The notes below the pieces were generated by a model. That model had not been told where the DNA came from and did not search any database. It saw only the letters and a list, made by a program, of their open reading frames with translations. From Pycnococcus provasolii (Eukaryota > Chlorophyta > Pseudoscourfieldiophyceae > Pseudoscourfieldiales > Pycnococcaceae), in assembly GCA_938743325.2 (NCBI GenBank), contig OW568882.1, positions 186,001 to 250,000 on the forward strand: a stretch of DNA of 64,000 nt. The letters are read 5' to 3'. Every line of letters begins with the position of its first letter. Position 1 is the stretch's first letter. This document shows, in pieces, positions 47,314 to 64,000 of this stretch. The translations under genes were made by a program, and so were the position numbers.

Positions 47314-49568
47314 CTACGGCTTCTTCAAGGTGCACTTGCCATATCTGCACGACGCTGTGATTTTTTGGTTATTGTTGAAGGCCTCGGCACCATTGAACAT
47401 GTCATACATGTCCGTCACCTTGCCCGTATCCCACCCGCTGATGTCTCGATTGAAGGCTTGGGCAAAGCTGAACATAAAGGCCATGTTGGTCACCTTCGAC
47501 GTATCCCACCCGCTGATGTCTTGATTGAAGTCCGTGGCACGATTGAACATAAACTTCATGTCCGTCACCTTGCCCGTATCCCACCCGCTGATGTCTTGAT
47601 TGAAGGATCTGGCTTCATAGAACATATGATTCATGTCCGTCACCTTGGACGTGTTCCAGTTGCTGATATCCTGGTTGAAGGCTTGGGCAAAGCTGAACAT
47701 ATGATTCATGACTGTCACCTTCGACGTGTTCCAGTTGCTGATATCCTGGTTGAAGGCTTGGGCAAAGCTGAACATAAAGGCCATGTTGGTCACCTTCGAC
47801 GTATCCCACCCGCTGATGTCTTGATTGAAGGCGTTGGCTGAACGGAACAATTCACTCATGTCCGTCACCTGTGACGTATCCCACTTGCTGATGTCTTGAT
47901 TGAAGGATCTGGCACCCTCGAACATATTGGACATGCTCGTCACCTTGGACGTATCCCACTCAGAGATCTCACCAAACAGATTAGTCGCAATTTCATGATT
48001 CCAAGTCCACACTCGAAAACGTGCTCGCAAATCATCAGTACTTGCCACGACCAATTTATTGTTCTTAGATTGTGCAGCCTCGAGACAATCCTTAGCAGAT
48101 TTCTCTGCCTGCTCCTTCGCATCAGCCGCCTCCTTCTGAGCAGCCTTGAGGGCGTCCTCAGCGCTCTTCCGAGCACTTTCCGCATCAGCCGCCTCCTTCT
48201 GAGCAGCCTTGAGGGCGTCCTCAGCGCTCTTCCGAGCACTTTCCGCATCAGCCGCCTCCTTCTGCGCCTTGGCCAATTCATTCTTCTCCTCGGCACAAGC
48301 TTGCATCGTGACAGCACCCGACTTCTCCATGCACGCTTCGTACCCGTTCTTCTGCGCAAAATCCGGGAAGTAGTAGTCGGTCCACGATCCCTCGCCAGCG
48401 AAAACGTAGGGTTTCGTGGTGTCGTATGCACTTTTGAGGTAGCACACGGACTTGTCGCCCGCCATCGTGAAGCCGACGCAGCCCTGATCCTTCATGGACG
48501 CGCACCCGTCCAGGCACTCCTTTTCTGCATTGGCCTTGTCCGAGGGGTTGATGCTGTCCGGGTTCAGGCCGCCGGACGTCTCCTCATAGCGGTGGTACAA
48601 GTTGAAGCACACGCCGCTCGCCGTCGCCGTGGCGGTGTTTCCGGTGGTGCTCGACTCAACCGTCACCTTGCTGTCGTCATCGGCAAGCAAGCCGCGTCGG
48701 CGCTTCGCCGACTTCTGCTCGGAATAGACAGGCATGCCAGACGCGCTTGTGACGTTGATGAAGTTGTTATCAACTGCCACGACATCACCCGAGCTCGCAA
48801 GGAACGCCACCTTCGTGTCCGTAGCACGGTATCCGGTGATGGTGTATCCAAGGAGCGTGCCGAACTGCTTGAGGTTGATGAGCTTCACCCCCGAGAGCAC
48901 GCCCGCGGTTTGCCCGGGCATGTCGAACAGCGCAAGGCTTTTCGTCGCCTTGGCTGTGCCCACTGGCGTGCTGGTTCCCTTCTTGACGAGCGCGCCGCTA
49001 TTGTCCGCCTTCGTCTCCTTGGTCTCCTCGACGAGACGGCGGTGAGGCTGACAATGACGGCCACCAGGGCGACCAGAATGATGAGGAGGACGCCGCTGAA
49101 AATCATAAGGCGCTTTGTGGTTTTCTTCGACTCCTTGTAGAGCTCCGCACCACGAGCAAGCTCCATGGGCGCGACCGTTCCGTCACCGTCGACGTCGAAC
49201 ACCTTGAGCGTAGCCTGAATTTCCTTCGGAAGTGTCTTGATGGCGATGGAGCCTTCCTTGTTCGCCTTCTTCAAGTCCACGTACACGGTTAAGATTTCCG
49301 TGAGCTCGTCCATCTCGATCTTTCCATTTTTCTCGTCGTCAATCTCGTGAAGGAGCGGTTGCACCTTCTTGGGAAACGAAGAGACTTTGAGATAGGTCAT
49401 CTCCGCAGACATGGGGTCAGGCAGTTCGTTGGGGTCGATGATGCCGTTTCCGTTGGTATCATATTGCGCGAGTTTCTCGCGCAGTAAGGCGGGGCACTCG
49501 TCGAGACGCACGCCGTGCAGCACCTTGCGCACCTCGCCGAGTGCTTGGTTCCCAGCCGGAGTAGACAT
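47314..49568 (-). CDS. EF-hand / transmembrane / PAN-like / DUF285-repeat protein, frameshifted
   Basis: Two overlapping minus frames form one gene split by a 1-nt shift near 49,030. The first (from ATG 49568) has three EF-hand loops (residues 37-48 [12 protein letters not shown], 77-88, 125-136 [12 protein letters not shown]) and one membrane helix (~154-176). The second frame continues with [13 protein letters not shown]. It then encodes a Cys-containing PAN/apple-like region ([29 protein letters not shown]), a coiled coil made of 21-residue [21 protein letters not shown] repeats (63-bp DNA repeats at 48119-48181 and 48182-48244), and eight exact 25-residue DUF285/BspA-type repeats (DISxWDTSKVTxMxxMFxxAxxFNQ) to 47360. 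DUF285 repeats are common in bacterial surface proteins and scattered in protists. The topology suggests cytosolic Ca2+ sensing with an extracellular adhesive part. The shift may be a sequencing error or a real mutation. Confidence 0.75.
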
Positions 49569-50157
49569 AATGTTATGAGCTGAAGGGACAGGGTCGATGG
49601 AGAGCTGATGAAGTACTTCTTCTTCTTCGAGCGTGCAGGGAACCGTGGCAACTCCCCGTGGGCCTCGAGCAGTATTGCGTCTGTTCAGGATCCGACGTTG
49701 CACAGGGTGAGGTGGTGAGCGGTAGAAGATACGCCAGCCCAGCTCAAGATCACACGCCCGGGCCAACCTTGTTCAGTTCACTGTGGACTTAATTTCCCGA
49801 CCAAATCACAATCCCATCCCATCCCGTGATTGGTGATTTACGATTTGGAACACAAGAGCAAGTTTGCACCATGTCGTCACGACGTGGCGTCTTTGAAGTG
49901 ACTAAAATGCTCAATCAAGTCTTCTGTCAGTCCCCTCGGGCAACCATATACGGTCGTCTTTTGCCCGGAAACCTCCTTACAGCAACGGTCGGCATCCGTC
50001 GACCTGTCCCTTTTGCTCCCCCTTCCCTCAGATAGGTCCGCGCCAAGGGGAAAAACAATCCCCGAAGTAGGTCCCCTAAGTCGAAAAATACAAAGCAGGC
50101 TCAAAGCAGGCTCAACAGCCAGAAGCATACAAACCCTCACTTGCTTTCTATTTTATG
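49569..50157. other. Intergenic DNA upstream of the EF-hand/DUF285 gene
   Basis: I see no supported gene, repeat array or RNA. The minus frame of the EF-hand gene stays open to 49766 but the added residues do not look like protein. Confidence 0.4.
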
Positions 50158-50746
50158 CGGAGAGCAAGAGGAGAAACGGAGTGCAACCGGGTCAGCAGAG
50201 CGGATGCGCGAGAGGCACAGCGTCTGCGCGGAGAAGTGGATGCTTTGCGCGGAGAAGTGGATGCTTTGAGCGGAGAAGTCGACACTCTTCAGTCTTCACT
50301 CTCGGCTCGAACTCACGACGCATGAGCTAAGGAGGGCGCGCCGTGACCACGCTATTGCGACTAATCTAACGACAAGAGAAGATGAAGTGCTTCGGCACGC
50401 GGCGGTGGCACTACGAAGTGAAGTCGTCAACGCGACGAAGGTAGTGAAAACGAATCCTCTCGTGGTCACCGCTGGGTGCTCAAACACGCAGTACTTTAGT
50501 GACCTACCTTGTCGCGTACAGACGTTTGTCGCGGCGCTCGTCGGGGAGGACGCGCTGACGCGCGCGCGTGTCGCTTCGGCGATCATGGCGATTGGTGGTA
50601 CACACAGGTGGCCCCTCGCTATCGCCGCGGCTATCACGGTGAAGACCGTCACGGGATCAGCAGGCGAAAGGGCGAAGTTGTCCTCTTTGAAAGGCGACGA
50701 GAGTGGTGAGTTTTGGAAAAACATTTATGGAGGCTGCCAACATTGA
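50158..50746 (+). pseudogene. Decayed coiled-coil ORF, unrecognised
   Basis: A plausible coiled-coil segment (REAQRLRGEVDALRGEVDAL then SGEVDTLQSSL) ends at a TGA near 50322. Similar charged helical sequence resumes in another frame (THELRRARRDHAIATNLTTR, then EVLRHAAVALRSEVV) and runs to a stop at 50746. A 24-bp unit (GGAGAAGTGGATGCTTTG-type) repeats at ~50238-50275. Two frames with no shared start suggest a frameshifted relic. No family is recognised; it may be a transposon-borne fragment. Confidence 0.35.
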
Positions 50747-51400
50747 TAAGGCGGGAGAACTAGGAGAGCGTGGTCAGTGTCGCGATAGCGTCTGACGATT
50801 AGGTGAGAGAGGCAAGCCTCGTCTCGCTGCTGCAAGTCGGAGCGTTGGTACGAGCTGCACTAGCAGCTCGCGACATATTCTAACTATTTGCATTGACTGC
50901 TTTCTTTAACAATAACTTTTGAACTTGGTTGCTTACAAAACAAATATTTTATTGTTACAAGTACTGTTGTACTTGGTTGCTTGCACCCATCCCACACTCC
51001 CAGTGGCCTTTTTCCTCTTCGGCCTCCGAAAGTACGTCGCATCACCCTTGACTCCTTGAGTGATATCTTTTAAGCTTTTAGGCATGCCAGGGGATGCGCG
51101 GCGTCAACGTCAACATCAACGACCACAGCTGTGCTGCCAGTCAAGGCAACGAGGCTTGACTTTGACAATGATGATGATGAGTCAAGGAACTTGATAAGTC
51201 AGGCGCCTGAACCTTCAAGGTCCTCCTCGCCCGTCTTTCGAGCAGTCTCGCTCGCATGGCTTGCAGAGTTTGCCAAGAAACATGAGGGAACGACGCAGAG
51301 CTGGGAGGTTAACAAAGAGTTTATGGTAATAGTTGTTGTTCTAACAATTACAAACAAAACATGACAAACAAGTGTCATCACACACAACAACTAAAACTTT
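50747..51400. other. Intergenic DNA downstream of the PKS
   Basis: No supported gene. A + frame at 51131-51364 (77 codons, with LAWLAEFAKKHEGTTQSWEV) is mildly protein-like but has no recognisable family. The 40 bp before the PKS stop contain ACAA/ACAAAAC-rich sequence that may serve as PKS 3' UTR. Confidence 0.45.
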
Positions 51401-54400
51401 TTAGAGCTCGTTCAACTTATCCCTGAGCTCCTCCAAACCACTCACACTACACCTCCTTTCACCACCACCACCACCACCAAGTCCACCACCATCATATTTC
51501 AGCCTGAGCGCTTCACAGAAAGCCATGCGCTTCAATCCTCTATCGACAGAAGCTCGCCACTTTCGCTCACTCACACCGCTTGGCTTCAGCATGTAGATCA
51601 CGTCAAGTTGTGCATCTGCATCGAGGTTTCTCAAGTCGTGTCTCAGCTGCTCACGATGATCCTCATCCTCATCAATCATCAGACTGCTGCTTTTGAGCAG
51701 CACGTCTATATCATCCTCAATCACATCTGGATCTAGGCAAAGCACTCTTCTCTCATCAGCACAACCAAGCTGCCTCGCCACCTCCACAGCCAAAGCGCTT
51801 CCAAAGCGTCCCTTGCCAATCACAACCACATCGCCACAAACCTCCTCAGGGCATGCCGTGCTCATCACCGCAGCTGCATACAGTCTTGCCAAGTCATCCA
51901 AATCATGCAAGCCCAGCCCAGCAGGTGTCAGTCGCAACCCGTAGGCTGGCCTTTGCTCATCCACCACTCCTCTCAAATCAGCATTCACCTCACCGAGCAC
52001 GTCGTGAACAATCACCACGGGGTAGCCGCGCACACCTCGATTGAGCCGAATAATCTCCGGTGCACAGCCTGGTCGCATCGTTGGCTCCTTGAAAAGAGCT
52101 GGTTCATAGCCTAGCTCTCGACCCACGTGCATGGCAAACGTGCTCAGCGGTGCCAATGCCGGCGCATGTACCCACGCATTAGCCATGCTAGCATCAATCG
52201 AACGTCTCTCGAGCACGCGTGGATCCATCGCAGCCATGCCAGATCGACCTTCGACACCTTGACGGCCTTCTCTCGTCGCCACGTTCTCGGCACTGTACGG
52301 ATCCAAGCACGCGTCGTCGAACGGAAGCCTTAGCACGTGCCAGAGCACTCTCGTGAGTTCCTCCCTGGGATCTCTCAGAAAGTCTTCGTACGCCATCCTC
52401 GTCCATCGCACGGGGCTCACCTCGTTGGTCAAGAAGTCTTGGATGTTCGCGTTCGCCGTTGCGTACAGACGATCAGACTCGTCCCACAGCACGGGATCCA
52501 GGCGCTGCAGCTGCTGACGTGCAATTTCCGTCGCCGCCGCAGACTCCCCCTCCTCCATCTCCTCCTCCATCTCCTTCTCCTCCTTCTCCTTCTCCTCACC
52601 ATCATCATCACCACCACCAAAGGCGGCGAAATCATCCTCCTCACTTCGAATCCTTGCCACAACCTCCTCCACCTCCAGTGCTCGCCTCCTCCTCCTCGCA
52701 TTGCTGCTGACCATCTGCTTCACAATCCACTCGCGATTCAAGCTCTCCTTCACCATGCTTGCAATCGTCGCGTACGGATGCCGATGCAAGAACACGTACC
52801 TTGCATTCTTGAAGATGGTCTCAGCGCGACGCAGCGTGTCGATGCTCCAAGCGTACGGCGGCGTCTTGTCCACGAGAATACGATCCGCGCACCACTCCTG
52901 CAGTACGTAGTAAACGTCTCTCGTGTCCAGCGCATCGCGCTCCATCTCACCCACAATCACGTTCGCCTGCTCGTACGTGCATCCGCGAATCTCCGAGATG
53001 GCATTCACCAATCCCTGACTTACAGGAAGCGTCGCGTCGACATCCTTCAGTTTCTCCTTGCGCTCCGCCATGTCGTGGTACTGCAGCAGATACAGCTCCT
53101 GTGGGGCCCACAGCTTCTCGTGGCGATTCAGCGACAACTGCACCAAGCTGCTTCCGCTGCGTGGTCCAGCCAGCAAGAATAGAACGGGCCTTGGATTTCT
53201 CCTCCTCCTCACGCCACGAGGAATCGCGGCGGCAGCAGTAGAAGTAGCAGCAGCATGAGGATGTTCACCTCCACCACCATCACCACCACCACCACCACCA
53301 AGCATCTGCGCGCTCACGTGCAAGCCCAAGTACATTTTCAGAGCGCCTCTTACGATGCCAATGCCACCGTCCTCCATGCCCATCATCTTCGCCATGCCAA
53401 AGTTCACCACAGCCTCCGCAACCTTTGACACCGTCTTGCGGTCAAATACGAGCGTTTCGGGAAGATCCGCCAATCCCGTGCGCTCTCGCAAATCTGCCAC
53501 AAGCAATCGCGCGGCATCATCCGTCAGCTTGTCGTTGCATGCGTTCGATTCCGAATCAAACAGATCGGCGCCACGGCGAACAATCACCGGTCTTCTTCTC
53601 GTGTTTTCATCGGATGGATTCATCATCATCATCATCGAGTTGGCATCCTCGGGCACGTCGTCGACGTCCAGCACATCCTCCTCCTCCTCCTCCTCCTCCT
53701 TGGGATGCACCACCTCGTTCGTGTTCACGTCAAACCTCAGCGCGCCGCCGCCACCCGTGAGTGAGCTCTGGTGCTTGTCCAAGCTCTCGTACACGATGCG
53801 CTCCACCAATGCCAAAGTGGTGTTGAGCATGCCCTGCGCCGCCACCGCCTGCTCATCCTCCGGGGTACCCCACCAAGGCTCGCTGCGCTCGGCGGGATAC
53901 ACGAAGCGTGCTCGCACCGCGGGAGTGCGGCGATCGTACGCGCACAGCACGGTGTGCGCCATCGCGCCGCCGTAGCCAAAACTACTCACACCTGCGTTGT
54001 TACCGTAAGCATCGTTCATCCTGCTGCTCGGCGACGGGCCAGCCTCTCTGGGAAACGTAAACGGGCACGTGCCGAACTCAATCAGCGGGTTAAGCTTCCT
54101 TTGGTGCACAATAGGCGGGATGTGGTTGTACATGACATTGCTCAGCGCCTTGGATAGGCTCGCGAGGCCGCTGGCGCCGTCGAGGTGGCCTATGTTGGCG
54201 TGCACACTGCCAAACACGAGGCAGTTGTCCTCCTCCCTTCGGCCCTCGAACAGGCTGCGGTACGCTCCCACCTCCACCGCGTCGCCGTGCGGCTCACCCA
54301 GCCCGCTCGCCTCCATGTAGCGAAGGTCGCCGTGCTTCATGCCCGCATTCTCCAGGGCGACGTTCACCTTGTGAATGATAGCCGGACCGCGCATCGCTCG

Positions 54401-57400
54401 CAGGCTCGCGCCGCCACCCTTGTGCGTTGCGGCCGATGCCACGATCAAAGCCTTCGTCTCGTCGCTGTCCACATCCTCGACGCGGCGACCGGTCGTCAGC
54501 CGCCAGCCTCGAAGTGCAATCGCGACGGAACCCTCGCCACGGCAGAAGCCGTCGGCGGAAGCGTCGAAGGTCTTGCACCTACCGTCCAGCGGGAACATGG
54601 AGCGGTTGCTGTGCAGCTCCATGAGCTGGGGGTGCATGATGACGTTCACGCCCGCAGCGTTGCTGTACCCGCGAACTTCCGCGCTAGCAGTCGCCGCCAA
54701 GCTGTCTCCGCCGTCGACGTCGCGCGCGCGCGCGTCGCACCACGCCATGTGCGTCGCGACGAGCGCGGACGAGCTCGCCGTGTCGAGCGCTATGCTCGGC
54801 CCGAGCAGACCAATCGAGTGCGACACCCTGTTGGCGGCAAAGGCGTACGTCACGTACGCGATCCTCTCGGCAATCTTCAGAACCGCCGCACGACCTCCGC
54901 CGCCTAAGAACGCGCCCGCGGCGCGGTCGCGCAGCAGGGTGTCGTAGTCGTTGTTGCATATGCCCACGAACACCGCGCCGTCGGAGTTCGTGAGGCTCCT
55001 CTTGCGCAGCCCGGCGTCGTGGTAAGCCTCGAAGTTCACATTAAGAAGGCACCGCTGCTGCGGGTCAATCTCGCGCGCCTCGGCAAGAGGCACGGAGAAG
55101 AACTTGGCGTCGAAGCGCTCCACGCCAGCCACAAAGCTTCCGTGTCGCGCGTACTTCTCGCTGTGCACGTCGCGGCGCCGCCGCACGGGGCCATCTTCCG
55201 GCTGACAGAGGTCGACGTCGAAGCGCTCTTTCGGAACAACCTGTATGCCGTCGAATCCAGCCTGGATGCCCTCGTGGAAGGGCAAGATGCTATGCGCTTC
55301 CGTGGGCAAACGCACGCCAATGCCAACCAGGCACGCCGTCACACGCGTCGGCGCGCCCGCAGCCAGCAAGCTCATCGTCGACGTGATGCCGCCGCTGCCG
55401 CGGCCGCCGGCGCCTCCGTCCGCCGCGCTGCTGCTGGCTGCCACGACGCTGCTGCTAGCAGCTGCGTCGACACGGTCAACCTCGCCACTCACGAACAGCG
55501 CCATCAAACTAGCACTGGGATAGTCGAACGCCACGGTTGCCGGCAGTGCCACGCCAACCTGCTGAGCGACGTTCTGGCTCAATTCTGTCATGCCAATCGA
55601 GTCCAGCCCGGCGTCCATCAAGGCATCCTCCGCTCCCACGTCGTCGCCAAGCACAGACTGCACGGCGCCGAGAATCTTCGTCTCGAGACTATCGACGCGC
55701 TCGTCGCGTTGCATGTTCCCGTAGAGGTTGTGCAAGGCAAGTGCAAGGTCGTCCGCGCTTGTCGTCGCTTGCTGCAGAACAGGGGAGGACGAGGAGTCGT
55801 GCAACCTCGCGTCGTCGCCTCCCGGCGCCGCCGACGACCGCGTCGATGATGCAGCAGCCTCGACGACATCACGGAAGAATGTCGGCACGGTACCACCAGC
55901 CGTACCCGCACGCTTCAAAATGGCGGAAAACTTGTGCCACTGCACCTTGGTAATCGCCACCGTGGCGGCAACTACATCAGCGGATGGTGGGCGAGCACTC
56001 GCTTCGGTGGGACTGCACGAGAGCGCACGTGCTAGCGCGCGCAATCCCTCCGCCGCATGGATTGCGTGTAGACCAAGCTGCTCGAGGCGCGAGACGACAC
56101 CAGGATCCTGCGATGCCATACCGCTGCCTGCCCATGCACCCCACTGCACGCTCACGACGCGCCCACTCGCGCCCGTGCTCTGACGCTTGCATGCCGCGTA
56201 ATCGAGAGCCGCGTTCGCCGCGGCGTAATTAACCTGGCCCGCATTGCCGAACAGAGCGGCGACAGACGAGAACAAAGCATACGCTCGAATGGGAGTCTTC
56301 GCAGTGAGAGTGTCAATTCGTGTGCACGAATCAACCTTGGGAGCAAACGCCGCACGGACGCGAACAACCGACTGATTGCGCAGATTTGCATCACGAAGCA
56401 CACCGCCGGCATGCACCACACCAGGCTGGGCGCCACGCGAGCCAGACCGGGCGAGTTGGTCAAAGTGCCACGTTGCATCACGGCTGGACGCCACGTCGCA
56501 GCGAACCGTGGAAACCATCGTCGGCGTTGATGACGACACCGAAGCGTCTGCCGAGATCCTGCCCGTACGCCCGAGCACGGCAACGTTGGCTCCATGCGCC
56601 AAGCCGACCCAGCGAGCGACGAGCTGTCCGAGCATGCCCGTCCCGCCTGTGATGTGCCACAGTCTGATGCTGGTGGCTATCAGGGCCTGCTCAGCGCCTG
56701 TGGTAAGCGAAGACTGTTGACGTCGTCGTAGCCTCGGAAGGAGCGTTGGTGCGACGATAGCTCCACCCCAGCACGCCATGCCAAAAGCACCGTCACCGTC
56801 TTCATGCTGCTTTGTGTCGTCGTACTGCTGCTCAGTCTTAGTCGTTGACGCCGTGTAGCGCCCTGAATCCAAGCCGTCAGCCGTGGACGAAATCTCATAT
56901 GCAGCGGCTCGCAGGGCTCCCCACACAGTCGCACCGCTCACGGCTGAAGCATCGCCGTCTGAAGACACGGCAAAAGCTGGACACGAACCAACTAACCATG
57001 CGTTCGCCTGACTTGCGCTTCCAGCCGTGAAGATTCGAATAGCTTGCGTTGACCGTGACAGCGTCGCTAGTACCGAGATTGCGGCGCAAGCGCTCGCCGC
57101 ATTCGGATTGTCGCTAAGGCCGTACACTGTTGATCGACGATGCCCGTGCGAAGCTCGCAGAAGCAACCTAATCGGTGGTACGACACCTTCCCATTCGTGC
57201 GTCGAAGCCGTGGCCGGTCCACTGCGCACCGCCGCAAGAGAGTCGCACGCATGCCAGACCGTGTCGTAGAGAAGGAGATTTCCATCATGGAGATCGTTGG
57301 ACATTTGCTCAGCCTGTCGAATGGCTGATGCGTCGTACTTGCTCATCGAAACAGATCGCATCGAGGTGACGTGCACAATGCGTGGCTGCGCACTTCGCGA

Positions 57401-60400
57401 CTCGATCGACCCGCACGAAATCTCTCCATCGAACACACATGCAGTTGCTGACTCCTTCTGGCATTTCGCCAGCCAGGGGTGATCGGTTGTGAAACTACAC
57501 TCATCAGCTGGACCAATGATTGTTTGATACATGTCCACGGATGTCGGGATCGAGGCATGACCAAGGGCCGTTGACGAGATCAGTGCATGCACGCTCGAGG
57601 TGGAAATCACAACTCCACGTTGCCAGTCAAGGCCAAAGTTCGATCCAAGCGTCTTGTGTGAACCAAACGTAGACGTACGATGTGAATCCTGATCTCCAAG
57701 CTTATGTGACGTCAGCGGGCTGAAGCAGGAACCTAGATCAAAGCCACAGCTTCTAAGATCAGACGCAACTCGTGATGTCGACACGGGTATCACCATTGCC
57801 GCTCGCACGGATGTACATTGGTCCATCCAAGGCACGATCGCCGCGTCGCGCGAAAGGCTGCGATGCTGCGCGTAGATGCCGCGGATGTGAGTCATGCGCG
57901 CCGAGGATGAGATGCTCACCGCGCTGTTGGCGCACGAAACGCTGCACGCGATCACCACGGACCTAAACGAGGCGTCCGACGGATCGGGAAGCGCGAGCGG
58001 CATCGGGATGCTCACGCCCGTGAGCGCGCACGGCGCCCCGCCGCGCAGCATCGCGCCGAAGGCTGCCGCCGTCTCGAAGAAGCCCGCGCCGGGGAACAGC
58101 GCCTGGCCTTGCACGCGGTGATCCCAGAGATAAGCGTGCATGTTGCGCCTCAGCGCGACCGCACCCTCCGCCGTGCCGTGAGCGGGCGCCGAAGCGCGAC
58201 TAACGAGATGGTGCGGCTTCAGCACGATCCACAGCGACTCCATGCGCCATACGTAGCTCGACGAGTCGGCGGCGACGACGCGCGACGTCGTCGTCGAACT
58301 GGACACCTGCTCGCCGATGACGTGCGCGTTGGTGCCTTGGAACGCGAACGAGCTCACGCCTGAGGCCACGCGCGTCGCGGAATCGCGCGCGAGCTGCGTC
58401 GCGGATTTCATGAAGGCGTACGCGGGCGTAGTGAGTACGCCGATCATGTGCGGGTTGACGGATGTCAGATGCATCACCGGAGCGACCGACGTCGTGCGCA
58501 GGTCATGCACCACCTGAAGCAAGCCGACTGCGCCCGCGCCTGGCTCCGTGTGGCCGACGGCGGACTTCGCCGCCGACATGACGAGCGGCGATACGCGGCC
58601 CTTCGCCTGCACAAGCACGGCGAAAGAGCCGCCCACCTCGATCGGGTCGCCGAGCGGCGTACCGGTGCCGTGCATCTGCAGGTTGTGCACGCCGCTTGCC
58701 GGCATCGATGCCGACTGCAGCGCGATACGGATCGCGCGCTGCTGTGACGGGCCGTTCGGCGCGGTGAGTGCGCTCGAGCGCCCATCCTGGTTGACGGACG
58801 AGCCGGCAACGTGCACGATACTATCGTCGTGAGGCATCGTCGCGTCGTGTACTGTCGACATCTGCGTACGAAGCACGCCGCACGACTCTCCGCGAACGTA
58901 CCCGCTCGCCTTGGCGTCGAGCGTCTTGCACCGCCCGTCCGGGGCGAGCATGCCAGCACGATTGAACGTCTCGGCATTGCCAGGTGTAAGTGTGAGGTTG
59001 ACGCCGCACACGAGCGCGTCAGTCGACTGACCAGCAGCCATCGTCGTGCGCGCGATGTGCGCGACGACGAGCGACGACGAGCACGCGGTATCGACGCTCA
59101 CAGACGAGCCTTGCATGCCAAACGTGTACGACAGACGACCGCATGCGACGCTGAGCGCACTTCCCGTGGACATATATGCGGTGATTTGCTCGCTGTAGCG
59201 CGCAGCAATCTGCCCGTACTCTGCGGCCGATATGCCGACAGCAACTGCTGCGTCGCTGCTACGCAGGTCCGATGCGCCGCCGACCCCGCCGGCGGTGACC
59301 TCCCACGCGCGCAGAAGAAGCACGCGCTGCTGTCCGTCCATCTGCGAACACTCCGTCGTCGTGAGCCCGAACAGCTGGGTGTCGAACTGGTCCGCGTTGC
59401 GCAGATAGCTGCCGAACCGCGGCTTGAGCTCGAGGTCGCTCTCTGGACCTGCCTCGACGTCCCATCTCTCGTGCGGTACTTCGGTGATGGCGTCGACGAA
59501 GCCGCTCGACTGGAACAAGCTCGGAAGCAGGCTAGACACCGCAAGCACAGACATGCGACAAACGCCGTCTGACGAAGCTGCCGCCGATGTCGCGAGGCCT
59601 CCTGCCGTCGCGGCATCGATCTCCTCTGCATCGTCGATGCTCGTGTAGAAGGCGCCATCGATGTAGTCGACCATCGCTGTCACGGACGGATAGTCGAACA
59701 CCAGCGTGCCCGGCAGCTCGATGCCTACGGTCGTGTCGATCGCGTTCTTCAGCTCCACGGCGCCGAGCGAGTCGAGACCCGCCTCCATGAGTGGATCATT
59801 CGCCTGCGCGTCCGGACCGACCACGCCGCGCACCACTTCCATCAGCTCGCGCTCGAGCTGCTGCTTGCGCTCTTCGGCGCCGAGGTGCACATGCTTGAGA
59901 CCCGCCGCCTGCATCTTGGCGGCATCGCCAAGAGTGCCGGACGCATCGACCGCCTCGAGCAGGTACTCGAACTCAGACACGAAAGCGGGGACCGCAGGCA
60001 TCTGCGCGAGGAACCGTGACCAGTCGAACGGGTTCGCTGTCACGACTGCGTGACCGCTAAGCTGCTTCAGCATGTGATGCAGCGCGCTCAGACCGTGATC
60101 CTCGTCCAGCGAGCCCATGCCCATGCGCTCGAGTCGAAGCGCCGTAGAGCGATCCTGCGATGCCATGCCGCCGCCGCTCCACGCGCCCCACTGGGCGCTC
60201 GTCGAAGCCACGCCGCTCGTCAGGCTGTGATGCGCGAAGCTGTCGAGCGCGGCATTCGCAGAGACGTAGTTCGCCTGCCCGCCGTTACCGAGCAGCGACG
60301 CGATCGACGAAAACAACACCGACGTGTCTACCGCGTGAGCCGCCAGCGACGCGCGCAGGTGCGCTGCGCCGCACACCTTCGGCGCGTGCACGGCCATTGT

Positions 60401-63400
60401 GCGTGACGCGGACTGGTTCAGCAGCATCGCATCGCGTAGCACGCCGCCGGCGTGCAGCACGCCCGTGGTGGGCGGATGCGTGCTCGCGCCCACGACCCAC
60501 CGCGCCTCAGACGCCTGCGAGACGTCGCAGCGCGCGAGCTGCACCATGCACCGTCCCGCCGACGCCGCCGTCGCCGTCGCGTCTCGCGCGCGTCCGCTGC
60601 GGCTGACGAGCCACTCGTGCGCCGCGCCGTACTCGCGCAGCCAACCCGCCATCATCAGGCCGAGCATGCCGAGTCCGCCCGTCACGAGCCATGAGCCGTC
60701 GACACGGACTTGTGCGACAGATGGCACCTGCACCACCACCTTGCCGACGTGCTGCGCGCGCGCCATCACGACGAACGCCTGTCTCGTGCGTCCGACCGTG
60801 TGAGACATCGAAGGCAGCGCACGCACGACGCCGCCACTCAGCGTCGACACGAGCGCGTCGAATGCCGCGCCGAGTACCGGCGGAGGCAGGAAGTCAACAG
60901 CCACCAGATGGAAGCTCACGTCACAGCGCTCGGCATGCACGCCGCGCGCCGTCCAGATGTCGCGCTTGCCGATCTCCACGAAGCCGCCGCACGCGCCGAG
61001 CGCGCTCAGAGATGCCGCGACCATGCCCGTCGATGTCAGCGAGTTGAGCACGTTCGTCACGCCCTCGCCCCTTGTGAGCGCGTGGATCTCGTCCGCGTAC
61101 GCCGTGCGGCGCGTGTCGAGAGCATCGCACACGCCGCGATCGCGAAGCAGGGCGCGCTTGCGCGGTCCGCCCGCCGTGCCTACGACGTGCGCGCCGAGCG
61201 TGCGCAGCACCTCGAGCGCGGCGAGTCCGACTCCGCCGGACGTCGCCTGCACGAGTACGCGCGACTCCGGCGTGGCTTCTGTCGCGCGCGACAGCGCCAT
61301 GTCGACCGTCACGAACACCGTCGGCGTCGTCGCCGCGGCGGAGAACGCAATCACGTCCGGCTTGCGTGCCGCAGCGTACACAGACGTGCGCGCGTGCGAT
61401 CCCAGGCATCCGGGCGCCAGACCCAGCAGCGACTCGCCTGCATGGAATGCGCGAGGCGCCAGCGGCGACACGGATACAGCCACGCCGGCGCAGTCGGCGC
61501 CGGGCGGACCCGGGTCGCCGGGGTACATGCCGAGCACGTTCAGTACGTCGCGGAAGTTGACTCCCACAGCCACCACGCGCAGTGTCATGGCGTCCGCGCG
61601 ATCGGATACGCCCAGCGCGTCGAGCGCGTGCGCCTTGAGGCCCGTGAAGGCACCGCGAGGCATCGGCTCGAGCTGGAAGCGACGTACCGTCTCGTGCGCC
61701 TGTGCGTGTAGCAGTCTCGGTCGGAGCAGCGCGCCCGCGCGAGCCGCGGCGCCCTGCGCGTCGCCGAGGTCAGCCTTCGTCGTCGTCGGCGCCGTCGCGC
61801 CTGCGCTTGCGTCGACGTCGACGCCGCCGCACTGCACCTGCGGCAGCTCCGCCGCGGCTGTGCGTAATATACCCCACGCTGACGCGAGCGCGACGCCGGG
61901 CCACGTGCGCGCGGTGCCGGCTGCTGCACTGACTGCGGCAGGCGCGTGCGCGCCACGCGTGACGAGCTCGAAGCGGCGTACGCGGAGCATGCTCGCGCAC
62001 TGCGCAAGCTCAAGCATGCGAACCGACGCGCTCAGCACGCGACAGTCCGCCGAGGTGAGGCGGTGCGAGATACCAACCACGTCCGTCGCGATCGGCGTAC
62101 CTGACGCCTTCCTCGGCTGAGCCAAAGCGGGCGCGGAGCCTGTCGTAAGCACGCGTCCGCCGCGGCTTGCCAAGAGCGCGTCTGACTCGTGCAGGCCCGC
62201 CGTCGCCGCGATGGTCCATCGCATCTCGTACAGGCACGTGGCGCCTGTGACAGGCTGCGTAACCTGCGATCCGCCTGCGGCGGTCGGTCGCGCGCCAATC
62301 ACACGAGCATCGAGCTGATGGAGGTTCGCGAATGCGCCGCCTTCGCGATCGACGATCCAGTGGTTGCTGATCGCGGACGCATCGCTCGAAGACACGGCGC
62401 GAGCCATGACCCACGCGTGCGTGTCCTGCGATCGACGCGCGATCGTGTATGCGCCGAGTGCCGCGGGCACGCGCGTCGCCGACTGCTCCGAGCTTGCAGT
62501 AGCGGCGTACGCAGCCGCGCTCACCTGCATGGACGCGTCGAGCGTTGCCGGATGCACGAAGCATCCGCGACGTACGCCGACATCGTCGATCCACAGATGA
62601 CCAGCCACGACCCCCGCGACGTCCGAGGGTCGACGGATACTCGTGAGCACGGCGAACGCCGGGCCGTACTGTAGTCCAGACGCCGCGACGCGCTCGTATG
62701 CTCCCACCGCGCTAACTGGAGAACTCGCTCCCGCGCGACCTGCACTCACGTTCTCCAGCGATGGCACGATCGCCGCGTCGCGCGAAAGGCTGCGATGCTG
62801 CGCGTAGCTGCCGCGGATGTGAGTCATGCGCGCCGAGGATGAGATGCTCACCGCGCTGTTGGCGCACGAAACGCTGCACGCGATCACCACGGACCTAAAC
62901 GAGGCGTCCGACGGATCGGGAAGCGCGAGCGGCATCGGGATGCTCACGCCCGTGAGCGCGCACGGCGCCCCGCCGCGCAGCATCGCGCCGAAGGCTGCCG
63001 CCGTCTCGAAGAAGCCCGCGCCGGGGAACAGCGCCTGGCCTTGCACGCGGTGATCCCAGAGATAAGCGTGCATGTTGCGCCTCAGCGCGACCGCACCCTC
63101 CGCCGTGCCGTGAGCGGGCGCCGAAGCGCGACCAACGAGATGGTGCGGCTTCAGCACGATCCACAGCGACTCCATGCGCCATACGTAGCTCGACGAGTCG
63201 GCGGCGACGACGCGCGACGTCGTCGTCGAACTGGACACCTGCTCGCCGATGACGTGCGCGTTGGTGCCTTGGAACGCGAACGAGCTCACGCCTGAGGCCA
63301 CGCGCGTCGCGGAATCGCGCGCGAGCTGCGTCGCGGATTTCATGAAGGCGTACGCGGGCGTAGTGAGTACGCCGATCATGTGCGGGTTGACGGATGTCAG

Positions 63401-64000
63401 ATGCATCACCGGAGCGACCGACGTCGTGCGCAGGTCATGCACCACCTGAAGCAAGCCGACTGCGCCCGCGCCTGGCTCCGTGTGGCCGACGGCGGACTTC
63501 ACCGCCGACATGACGAGCGGCGATACGCGGCCCTTCGCCTGCACAAGCACGGCGAAAGAGCCGCCCACCTCGATCGGGTCGCCGAGCGGCGTACCGGTGC
63601 CGTGCATCTGCAGGTTGTGCACGCCGCTTGCCGGCATCGATGCCGACTGCAGCGCGATACGGATCGCGCGCTGCTGTGACGGGCCGTTCGGCGCGGTGAG
63701 TGCGCTCGAGCGCCCATCCTGGTTGACGGACGAGCCGGCAACGTGCACGATACTATCGTCGTGAGGCATCGTCGCGTCGTGTACTGTCGACATCTGCGTA
63801 CGAAGCACGCCGCACGACTCTCCGCGAACGTACCCGCTCGCCTTGGCGTCGAGCGTCTTGCACCGCCCGTCCGGGGCGAGCATGCCAGCACGATTGAACG
63901 TCTCAGCGTTCTGTGGAGTTAGCGTGAGGTTGACGCCGCACACGAGCGCGTCAGTCGACTGACCAGCAGCCATCGTCGTGCGCGCGATGTGCGCGACGAC
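51401..64000 (-). CDS. Giant modular type I polyketide synthase, 5' end outside window
   Basis: One open frame of 4199 codons enters at the right edge (just after a KS active site) and ends at 51401. Order: KS1 C-half (HGTGT ~63590); DH1 (HRVQGQALFP ~63040; HPATLDASMQ ~62540); degenerate KR half; ER1 (VGVNFRDVL ~61550; ATSGGVGL ~61240); KR1 (TGGLGMLG ~60670; YVSANAALD ~60255); ACP1 (LDSLGAVEL ~59765). Next KS2 (DTACSSSLV ~59080; HGTGT ~58660); DH2 (~58105; second half diverged); KR2 (TGGTGMLG ~56640; YAAANAALD ~56212); ACP2 (LDSIGMTEL ~55590). Then a terminal block: KS3 with DTASSSALV (~54,770), ACP-like remnant without Ser (~53,500), sulfotransferase (AGPRSGSS ~53,160; FLHRHPYATIASM ~52,775) and thioesterase-like domain lacking GxSxG (~52,010-51,770). 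No acyltransferase is present in either complete KS-to-ACP region, so malonyl loading must come in trans or from upstream. Module 1 would give full reduction, module 2 an alkene. Product unknown. Confidence 0.93.
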   Translation of the reverse strand, partial: VVAHIARTTMAAGQSTDALVCGVNLTLTPQNAETFNRAGMLAPDGRCKTLDAKASGYVRGESCGVLRTQMSTVHDATMPHDDSIVHVAGSSVNQDGRSSALTAPNGPSQQRAIRIALQSASMPASGVHNLQMHGTGTPLGDPIEVGGSFAVLVQAKGRVSPLVMSAVKSAVGHTEPGAGAVGLLQVVHDLRTTSVAPVMHLTSVNPHMIGVLTTPAYAFMKSATQLARDSATRVASGVSSFAFQGTNAHVIGEQVSSSTTTSRVVAADSSSYVWRMESLWIVLKPHHLVGRASAPAHGTAEGAVALRRNMHAYLWDHRVQGQALFPGAGFFETAAAFGAMLRGGAPCALTGVSIPMPLALPDPSDASFRSVVIACSVSCANSAVSISSSARMTHIRGSYAQHRSLSRDAAIVPSLENVSAGRAGASSPVSAVGAYERVAASGLQYGPAFAVLTSIRRPSDVAGVVAGHLWIDDVGVRRGCFVHPATLDASMQVSAAAYAATASSEQSATRVPAALGAYTIARRSQDTHAWVMARAVSSSDASAISNHWIVDREGGAFANLHQLDARVIGARPTAAGGSQVTQPVTGATCLYEMRWTIAATAGLHESDALLASRGGRVLTTGSAPALAQPRKASGTPIATDVVGISHRLTSADCRVLSASVRMLELAQCASMLRVRRFELVTRGAHAPAAVSAAAGTARTWPGVALASAWGILRTAAAELPQVQCGGVDVDASAGATAPTTTKADLGDAQGAAARAGALLRPRLLHAQAHETVRRFQLEPMPRGAFTGLKAHALDALGVSDRADAMTLRVVAVGVNFRDVLNVLGMYPGDPGPPGADCAGVAVSVSPLAPRAFHAGESLLGLAPGCLGSHARTSVYAAARKPDVIAFSAAATTPTVFVTVDMALSRATEATPESRVLVQATSGGVGLAALEVLRTLGAHVVGTAGGPRKRALLRDRGVCDALDTRRTAYADEIHALTRGEGVTNVLNSLTSTGMVAASLSALGACGGFVEIGKRDIWTARGVHAERCDVSFHLVAVDFLPPPVLGAAFDALVSTLSGGVVRALPSMSHTVGRTRQAFVVMARAQHVGKVVVQVPSVAQVRVDGSWLVTGGLGMLGLMMAGWLREYGAAHEWLVSRSGRARDATATAASAGRCMVQLARCDVSQASEARWVVGASTHPPTTGVLHAGGVLRDAMLLNQSASRTMAVHAPKVCGAAHLRASLAAHAVDTSVLFSSIASLLGNGGQANYVSANAALDSFAHHSLTSGVASTSAQWGAWSGGGMASQDRSTALRLERMGMGSLDEDHGLSALHHMLKQLSGHAVVTANPFDWSRFLAQMPAVPAFVSEFEYLLEAVDASGTLGDAAKMQAAGLKHVHLGAEERKQQLERELMEVVRGVVGPDAQANDPLMEAGLDSLGAVELKNAIDTTVGIELPGTLVFDYPSVTAMVDYIDGAFYTSIDDAEEIDAATAGGLATSAAASSDGVCRMSVLAVSSLLPSLFQSSGFVDAITEVPHERWDVEAGPESDLELKPRFGSYLRNADQFDTQLFGLTTTECSQMDGQQRVLLLRAWEVTAGGVGGASDLRSSDAAVAVGISAAEYGQIAARYSEQITAYMSTGSALSVACGRLSYTFGMQGSSVSVDTACSSSLVVAHIARTTMAAGQSTDALVCGVNLTLTPGNAETFNRAGMLAPDGRCKTLDAKASGYVRGESCGVLRTQMSTVHDATMPHDDSIVHVAGSSVNQDGRSSALTAPNGPSQQRAIRIALQSASMPASGVHNLQMHGTGTPLGDPIEVGGSFAVLVQAKGRVSPLVMSAAKSAVGHTEPGAGAVGLLQVVHDLRTTSVAPVMHLTSVNPHMIGVLTTPAYAFMKSATQLARDSATRVASGVSSFAFQGTNAHVIGEQVSSSTTTSRVVAADSSSYVWRMESLWIVLKPHHLVSRASAPAHGTAEGAVALRRNMHAYLWDHRVQGQALFPGAGFFETAAAFGAMLRGGAPCALTGVSIPMPLALPDPSDASFRSVVIACSVSCANSAVSISSSARMTHIRGIYAQHRSLSRDAAIVPWMDQCTSVRAAMVIPVSTSRVASDLRSCGFDLGSCFSPLTSHKLGDQDSHRTSTFGSHKTLGSNFGLDWQRGVVISTSSVHALISSTALGHASIPTSVDMYQTIIGPADECSFTTDHPWLAKCQKESATACVFDGEISCGSIESRSAQPRIVHVTSMRSVSMSKYDASAIRQAEQMSNDLHDGNLLLYDTVWHACDSLAAVRSGPATASTHEWEGVVPPIRLLLRASHGHRRSTVYGLSDNPNAASACAAISVLATLSRSTQAIRIFTAGSASQANAWLVGSCPAFAVSSDGDASAVSGATVWGALRAAAYEISSTADGLDSGRYTASTTKTEQQYDDTKQHEDGDGAFGMACWGGAIVAPTLLPRLRRRQQSSLTTGAEQALIATSIRLWHITGGTGMLGQLVARWVGLAHGANVAVLGRTGRISADASVSSSTPTMVSTVRCDVASSRDATWHFDQLARSGSRGAQPGVVHAGGVLRDANLRNQSVVRVRAAFAPKVDSCTRIDTLTAKTPIRAYALFSSVAALFGNAGQVNYAAANAALDYAACKRQSTGASGRVVSVQWGAWAGSGMASQDPGVVSRLEQLGLHAIHAAEGLRALARALSCSPTEASARPPSADVVAATVAITKVQWHKFSAILKRAGTAGGTVPTFFRDVVEAAASSTRSSAAPGGDDARLHDSSSSPVLQQATTSADDLALALHNLYGNMQRDERVDSLETKILGAVQSVLGDDVGAEDALMDAGLDSIGMTELSQNVAQQVGVALPATVAFDYPSASLMALFVSGEVDRVDAAASSSVVAASSSAADGGAGGRGSGGITSTMSLLAAGAPTRVTACLVGIGVRLPTEAHSILPFHEGIQAGFDGIQVVPKERFDVDLCQPEDGPVRRRRDVHSEKYARHGSFVAGVERFDAKFFSVPLAEAREIDPQQRCLLNVNFEAYHDAGLRKRSLTNSDGAVFVGICNNDYDTLLRDRAAGAFLGGGGRAAVLKIAERIAYVTYAFAANRVSHSIGLLGPSIALDTASSSALVATHMAWCDARARDVDGGDSLAATASAEVRGYSNAAGVNVIMHPQLMELHSNRSMFPLDGRCKTFDASADGFCRGEGSVAIALRGWRLTTGRRVEDVDSDETKALIVASAATHKGGGASLRAMRGPAIIHKVNVALENAGMKHGDLRYMEASGLGEPHGDAVEVGAYRSLFEGRREEDNCLVFGSVHANIGHLDGASGLASLSKALSNVMYNHIPPIVHQRKLNPLIEFGTCPFTFPREAGPSPSSRMNDAYGNNAGVSSFGYGGAMAHTVLCAYDRRTPAVRARFVYPAERSEPWWGTPEDEQAVAAQGMLNTTLALVERIVYESLDKHQSSLTGGGGALRFDVNTNEVVHPKEEEEEEEDVLDVDDVPEDANSMMMMMNPSDENTRRRPVIVRRGADLFDSESNACNDKLTDDAARLLVADLRERTGLADLPETLVFDRKTVSKVAEAVVNFGMAKMMGMEDGGIGIVRGALKMYLGLHVSAQMLGGGGGGDGGGGEHPHAAATSTAAAAIPRGVRRRRNPRPVLFLLAGPRSGSSLVQLSLNRHEKLWAPQELYLLQYHDMAERKEKLKDVDATLPVSQGLVNAISEIRGCTYEQANVIVGEMERDALDTRDVYYVLQEWCADRILVDKTPPYAWSIDTLRRAETIFKNARYVFLHRHPYATIASMVKESLNREWIVKQMVSSNARRRRRALEVEEVVARIRSEEDDFAAFGGGDDDGEEKEKEEKEMEEEMEEGESAAATEIARQQLQRLDPVLWDESDRLYATANANIQDFLTNEVSPVRWTRMAYEDFLRDPREELTRVLWHVLRLPFDDACLDPYSAENVATREGRQGVEGRSGMAAMDPRVLERRSIDASMANAWVHAPALAPLSTFAMHVGRELGYEPALFKEPTMRPGCAPEIIRLNRGVRGYPVVIVHDVLGEVNADLRGVVDEQRPAYGLRLTPAGLGLHDLDDLARLYAAAVMSTACPEEVCGDVVVIGKGRFGSALAVEVARQLGCADERRVLCLDPDVIEDDIDVLLKSSSLMIDEDEDHREQLRHDLRNLDADAQLDVIYMLKPSGVSERKWRASVDRGLKRMAFCEALRLKYDGGGLGGGGGGERRCSVSGLEELRDKLNEL
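57831..59068. repeat. 1.24-kb KS-DH direct repeat inside the PKS, copy 1 (module 2)
   Basis: Nearly identical to 62763-64000 at a constant 4932-bp offset. Visible differences are three isolated single-base changes (near 57887, 58200, 58567) and one dense 25-bp patch (~58970-58995). Similarity stops abruptly at 57831, inside DH2. Copy 2 continues past the window edge. Confidence 0.95.
62763..64000. repeat. 1.24-kb KS-DH direct repeat inside the PKS, copy 2 (module 1)
   Basis: Partner of 57831-59068. It covers the C-terminal part of KS1 and the N-terminal half of DH1 and is cut by the window end. Confidence 0.95.

Follow-up and report, generated by a model that had tools for sequence, protein, structure and literature searches.

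A recurring terminus of ketosynthase-like and sulfotransferase domains, possibly for chain release, in a giant polyketide synthase of Pycnococcus provasolii

We analyzed a stretch of 64,000 nucleotides (the window) from the green alga Pycnococcus provasolii (GenBank assembly GCA_938743325.2, contig OW568882.1, positions 186,001 to 250,000; C22:186001-250000 in our contig labels, from a source genome of 32.3 Mb in 46 contigs). A giant polyketide synthase (PKS) ends on the minus strand of this window. Its last four domains are a ketosynthase (KS)-like domain with an exchanged active site (KS0; 53924..55348), an acyl carrier protein (ACP) remnant (ACP0; about 53402..53575), a sulfotransferase (ST; 52088..53200) of the kind found in CurM and the olefin synthases (Ols), and a thioesterase (TE) fold lacking the catalytic-site Ser and His (TE0; 51404..52066). 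This block is recurring and conserved, and is not a product of chance; local decay and local sequencing error are ruled out because 14 other proteins, metagenomic relatives among them, have the same KS0 ahead of the same ST. With middling confidence, we interpret it as a conserved chain-release block of giant PKSs, in which the ST would sulfonate the chain and KS0 would handle the acyl group.

Recurrence of the block and exchanged residues in KS0

Three protein searches were run, each seeded downstream of KS0 on the ST end and with about 8,000 candidates scored per search. The protein set numbered 188, with the window's protein included (P-numbers are labels of this analysis). The KS0 motifs HKGGGASLR and EASG[LM]GEP occurred together in 15 of the 188 proteins, and the ST motif followed in all 15. 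Neither motif was present in the other 173 proteins, six of which (P0141-P0146) are ST-TE0 fragments that start past the KS0 motifs; three of these six retain the FGG[TS]MAH end of KS0. Mean pairwise identity was 59.4% for KS0 (14 rows) and, with 15 rows each, 49.9% for the ST, 25.6% for ACP0, and 24.9% for TE0; invariant columns numbered 86 of 296, 48 of 302, 1 of 149, and 4 of 217, respectively. In a tree of 38 KSs, the 14 KS0s lay on one side of a single branch with 100/100 support, and owing to the long stem of this group its place among KSs is unsure. A genome scan with generic KS patterns found the KS0 motifs in none of the 79 loci kept (from the best 80 of 552 confirmed relatives), a result that does not establish absence from bacteria, and a scan of viruses found no relative.

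Alignment to solved KSs bore out the initial annotation of this domain: Ser stands for the active-site Cys and for the His of HGTGT, and the GH His is still in place, as it is in 15/15 family rows. The same alignment revealed two further exchanges that had gone unnoticed, His at the catalytic Lys and Met at the Asn of NAH. In the numbering of the protein, the exchanged residues are S3067 (Cys site; codon 54773..54775), S3223 (His), H3258 (Lys), and M3338 (Asn), and the KS0 motifs DTASSSALV, EASGLGEP, and HANIGH lie at 54784-54758, 54313-54290, and 54202-54185 on the minus strand. Cys, His, and Lys are the usual catalytic residues of condensing KSs. Because all three are exchanged, KS0 should not condense. 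Cys and HGTGT are intact in 13 of the 14 KS domains of the giant protein, including the last elongating KS (58304..59509 on the minus strand, approximate ends; Pfam and motifs), and only the last KS deviates. The genome seems to have one KS0, since its other 40 KS matches are just 27-37% identical to it.

The exchanges are fixed across the family. All 14 KS0 rows that reach the nucleophile position have Ser there. At 93 columns, 80% or more of 24 ordinary KSs share one residue; KS0 retains this residue in 48 of the columns, has a fixed swap (another residue in at least 13/14 rows) in 17, and varies in 28. The four catalytic-site exchanges (Cys>Ser, His>Ser, Lys>His, and Asn>Met) belong to the 17 fixed swaps. 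Moreover, the conservation of KS0 matches that of the last ordinary KS in all three protein pairs that have both domains (pairwise identities of 48.6/46.7, 46.6/45.8, and 50.8/49.0%, KS0 given before the ordinary KS). Fixed swaps point to another job for KS0; decay would give varied residues, as it does at the TE0 elbow. KS0 looks rebuilt rather than decayed, and would be the likeliest site of an extra step. The earlier proposal of a selected scaffold instead of decay holds in part: conservation speaks largely against decay, but the three degenerate domains differ, in that KS0 appears rebuilt whereas ACP0 and TE0 drift.

Upstream module, sulfotransferase, and TE0

The open frame that contains the block is longer than first described. 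The 4,190-residue reading frame of the window is the truncated end of a stop-free minus-strand frame of 23,582 residues (C22:237401-308149), whose C-terminus is the block, so that the earlier claim of an intact frame is both confirmed and extended. The frame encodes a hybrid of PKS and nonribosomal peptide synthetase (NRPS) with 14 KS domains and one condensation-adenylation (C-A) stretch. A Pfam scan of pieces of the frame found KS, dehydratase (DH), enoylreductase (ER), ketoreductase (KR), and ACP domains together with the NRPS C-A stretch, and an acyltransferase (AT)-like GHSLG stretch was read by eye at its beginning.

Read 5' to 3' on the minus strand, the C-terminal order is last elongating KS, half DH, KR, live ACP, KS0, ACP0, ST, and TE0, with the stop at 51401. 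The initial annotation had given the end as KS, ACP-like stretch, ST, and TE. This order is present, but a live ACP (55469..55702, approximate end; DAGLDSIGM at 55615-55589) directly precedes KS0, and so the block is not carrier-less. The live ACP is the likely carrier of a beta-hydroxyacyl chain. The last module has a KR (56129..56665, approximate end) and the N-terminal half of a DH (57848..58213, approximate ends; HRVQGQALFP), and neither the Asp half of the DH nor an ER was recognizable in it; the penultimate module has a complete DH (HRVQGQALFP and HPATLDASMQ) plus an ER. Domain scans of four relatives gave KR-ACP-KS0-ST with no DH match, and HxxxGxxxxP was missing at the corresponding place in all four, two of which start shortly ahead of the KR. 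Because the last module has half a DH and no ER, and the relatives show no DH, the chain should arrive at the terminus as a beta-hydroxyacyl thioester. ACP0 indeed lacks a phosphopantetheine Ser motif, as annotated, and drifts across the family at the 25.6% mean identity given above; it is most likely a structural remnant, to judge from its sequence.

Sulfotransferases are members of the P-loop superfamily. Both PAPS (3'-phosphoadenosine 5'-phosphosulfate)-binding motifs of the ST were found where they had been placed, the 5' motif as PRSGSS (53164-53147) and the 3' motif as RHPYATIAS (52783-52757), and an acidic insert lies near 52597-52559. Comparisons of sequence and fold likewise agreed with the earlier likening to CurM and olefin synthases, which are the closest relatives. 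The ST is probably active. A beta-hydroxyacyl thioester is described as the substrate type of CurM/Ols sulfotransferases (PMC3903477), and a sulfotransferase is reported in a PKS of Emiliania huxleyi (PMC7073580).

The statement that the TE lacks its nucleophile was correct and incomplete: Arg occupies the Ser column of the window's TE0 (elbow GKGRFGSAL, 51817-51791), and the region of the catalytic His is lost as well, with a gap at the His column. No Pfam thioesterase match was obtained for this domain; its model has the alpha/beta hydrolase fold of type I thioesterase domains, and the structure comparison lists thioesterases, whereas GxSxG and the catalytic His are absent. Across 21 rows, the nucleophile column holds eight different residues or a gap. 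Sequence and model together suggest that TE0 is most likely a shell, or structural remnant. A Rossmann reading (GxGxxG, followed by a strand ending in Asp) was prompted by GxGx[FLY]G in seven rows, and was dropped because the structure comparison gives thioesterases and the elbow aligns with that of active TEs; no nucleotide-binding fold is among the matches listed. Elsewhere in the genome, a C30 frame of 17,190 residues (L034:5618-10000) closes with an intact TE, behind which a second, TE0-like stretch stands.

Candidate routes of chain release

In the mechanism that we favor, the last module would finish with a beta-hydroxyacyl chain bound to the live ACP, as its domains imply, and the ST would transfer sulfate from PAPS to the beta-hydroxyl, consistent with its homology and intact motifs. 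The textbook TE step could not follow, because TE0 has the modeled fold and, in alignment, neither catalytic Ser nor His. KS0 would most likely handle the acyl chain, given the fixation of its exchanged residues throughout the family. Ser3067 with His3258 or His3263 could carry out acyl transfer or hydrolysis; alternatively, KS0 could hold the chain for the ST, and a separate thioesterase could release it. A beta-sulfate and a terminal alkene are both candidate products. More tentatively, KS0 may be a KS-derived Ser-His acyl-enzyme that receives the beta-sulfated chain held by the ACP and either releases it or passes it on, having replaced the TE, which then decayed to a shell. To our knowledge, such KS-derived chain release occurs in no PKS. 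If true, a Ser-His KS0 would give giant algal synthases a mechanism of chain release. The four fixed catalytic-site exchanges give a short list of residues for asking whether a condensing enzyme became a release or transfer enzyme.

Several observations weigh against an acyl-handling KS0 behind a dead TE. The KS0 structure prediction had a mean confidence (pLDDT) of 38.4, with the N-terminal part cut off, and gave no usable Ser3067/His geometry; the fixed residues could instead make contacts between subunits or with an ACP. The degree to which TE0 is dead may differ among the relatives, since a His stands close to the TE His column in P0009 and P0011, and the elbow has a Ser in P0010 and P0041. 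In addition, the genome has free thioesterase-like genes with intact motifs, and the family counts are lower bounds, because each search scored only about 8,000 candidates.

In a possible, though not probable, alternative, KS0 would serve purely as a structural platform for the dimer, the upstream ACP would hold the chain while the ST sulfonates it, and release in trans would fall to a free-standing TE or to that of a neighboring synthase, yielding a beta-sulfate, or a terminal alkene after decarboxylation. Intact thioesterase motifs do occur elsewhere in the genome, in a free gene on C23 (GHSMGAW), in the C30 synthase (GGHSYGG), and among 13 PF00975 matches. However, we saw no genomic link between these thioesterases and the giant gene, and a platform has no need to fix new residues at four catalytic positions. 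That the TE0 shell itself catalyzes release or decarboxylation through other residues, much as the TE of CurM does through Ser-His, is improbable, given the eight residues or gap at its nucleophile column in 21 rows and the invariance of only 4/217 columns. Least probable is ongoing decay of the block, with the synthase turning into a pseudogene. The drift of ACP0 and TE0, the early end of the window's TE0, and an orphan truncated ST-TE0 copy in an inverted repeat would fit such decay, but the 23,582-residue frame contains no stop, KS0 and the ST are conserved over 15 proteins, and the swaps are fixed; this conservation appears largely to refute decay.

Comparison with known systems and genomic setting

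Giant type I PKSs are described from most sequenced chlorophytes, with products that are almost unknown (PMC4661987). In the same source, Shelest et al. (2015) place a terminal KS0 ("clade 6") before an unnamed "hydrolase-like domain" in MicPKS2, OluPKS3, and OtaPKS1 of Micromonas and Ostreococcus, report its Cys as shifted two positions forward (DCASASG), and suggest a role in release. The window's terminus is very likely of the same kind, compared by description only: both are terminal KSs of giant, largely AT-less green-algal PKSs in which Ser replaces the HGTGT His and a P-loop-kind domain (IPR027417) stands behind. Unlike the shifted-Cys DCAS of clade 6, the window has DTAS. Two positions ahead of the nucleophile site, Cys is present in 9/14 family rows (DCAS) and Thr in 5/14 (DTAS, the window included), and the shifted Cys therefore cannot be the general KS0 nucleophile. 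The main text of Shelest et al. names no sulfotransferase, TE remnant, ACP remnant, or Lys>His swap, and "Sulfo" appears nowhere in it. We found no description of a KS0-ACP0-ST-TE0 terminus in the open-licence literature, a scope that leaves the primary PKZILLA paper outside; within it, the CurM/Ols-type ST, TE0, ACP0, and the Lys>His swap seem not to have been described. The ST assignment predicts concrete chemistry, a beta-sulfate or a terminal alkene, and this prediction would extend to Ostreococcus and Micromonas if the KS0 termini published from these genera turn out to be this same block.

Like the CurM/Ols terminus, the block has an ST close in sequence and fold, a TE fold behind it, and, by domain content only, an upstream KR-ACP giving a beta-hydroxyacyl thioester. 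In contrast to CurM/Ols, where a live ACP is directly ahead of the ST and the TE works, here KS0 and ACP0 separate the live ACP from the ST, and the TE has neither catalytic Ser nor His. Eukaryotic ST-TE ends with an intact TE do exist, in P0156 (an MMETSP transcript), P0055 (Aureococcus anophagefferens), and, similarly, P0151; ends of the P0156/P0055 type have the same ST-then-TE order, but GxSxG and GxH are intact and the KS0 motifs are missing. By eye, P0055 (JL720_4828) has two CurM-like STs in tandem, then an intact TE and an AT-like stretch. DpsC-like priming ketosynthases share the KS-type fold and Ser for Cys, a likeness that for KS0 is by position only, and they use Ser-His-Asp; they differ in being free-standing type II priming enzymes, whereas KS0 stands at the terminus of a type I synthase (PMC12664062). 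Non-elongating KS0s of trans-AT synthases, as worded in PMC4661987, lose the HGTGT His and keep Cys for transacylation, unlike the Ser in 14/14 rows here.

The window end of the giant gene lies in an inverted repeat of 4.36 kb (L016), whose arms, at window 48730..53087 and outside the window at C22:308489-312839, are 99.63% identical. The near arm spans the last two thirds of the ST, TE0, and a downstream EF-hand gene. The far arm is separated from the giant gene's start by 340 bases and carries, head-to-head with this gene, the orphan ST-TE0 frame of 556 residues, which is without the 5' PAPS loop. Only two substitutions separate the coding parts of the arms, both in the acidic linker. The repeat is either a recent event or an assembly effect. 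Modules of the giant gene also recur at 97.6-99.7% DNA identity, from window 57822-64000 on to C22:298009, which suggests recent amplification or gene conversion.

A tandem repeat whose period is about 75 bases lies at window 47375-47960. The genome has 51 chlorophyll a/b-binding matches; one of these, compared with the PDB, counted photosystem I antenna proteins of the plant and green types among its best relatives there, which fits a green-lineage alga. Chlorophyll-binding genes of equal score form two groups, with six genes in each, at C31:133072-142609 and C31:360395-366434.

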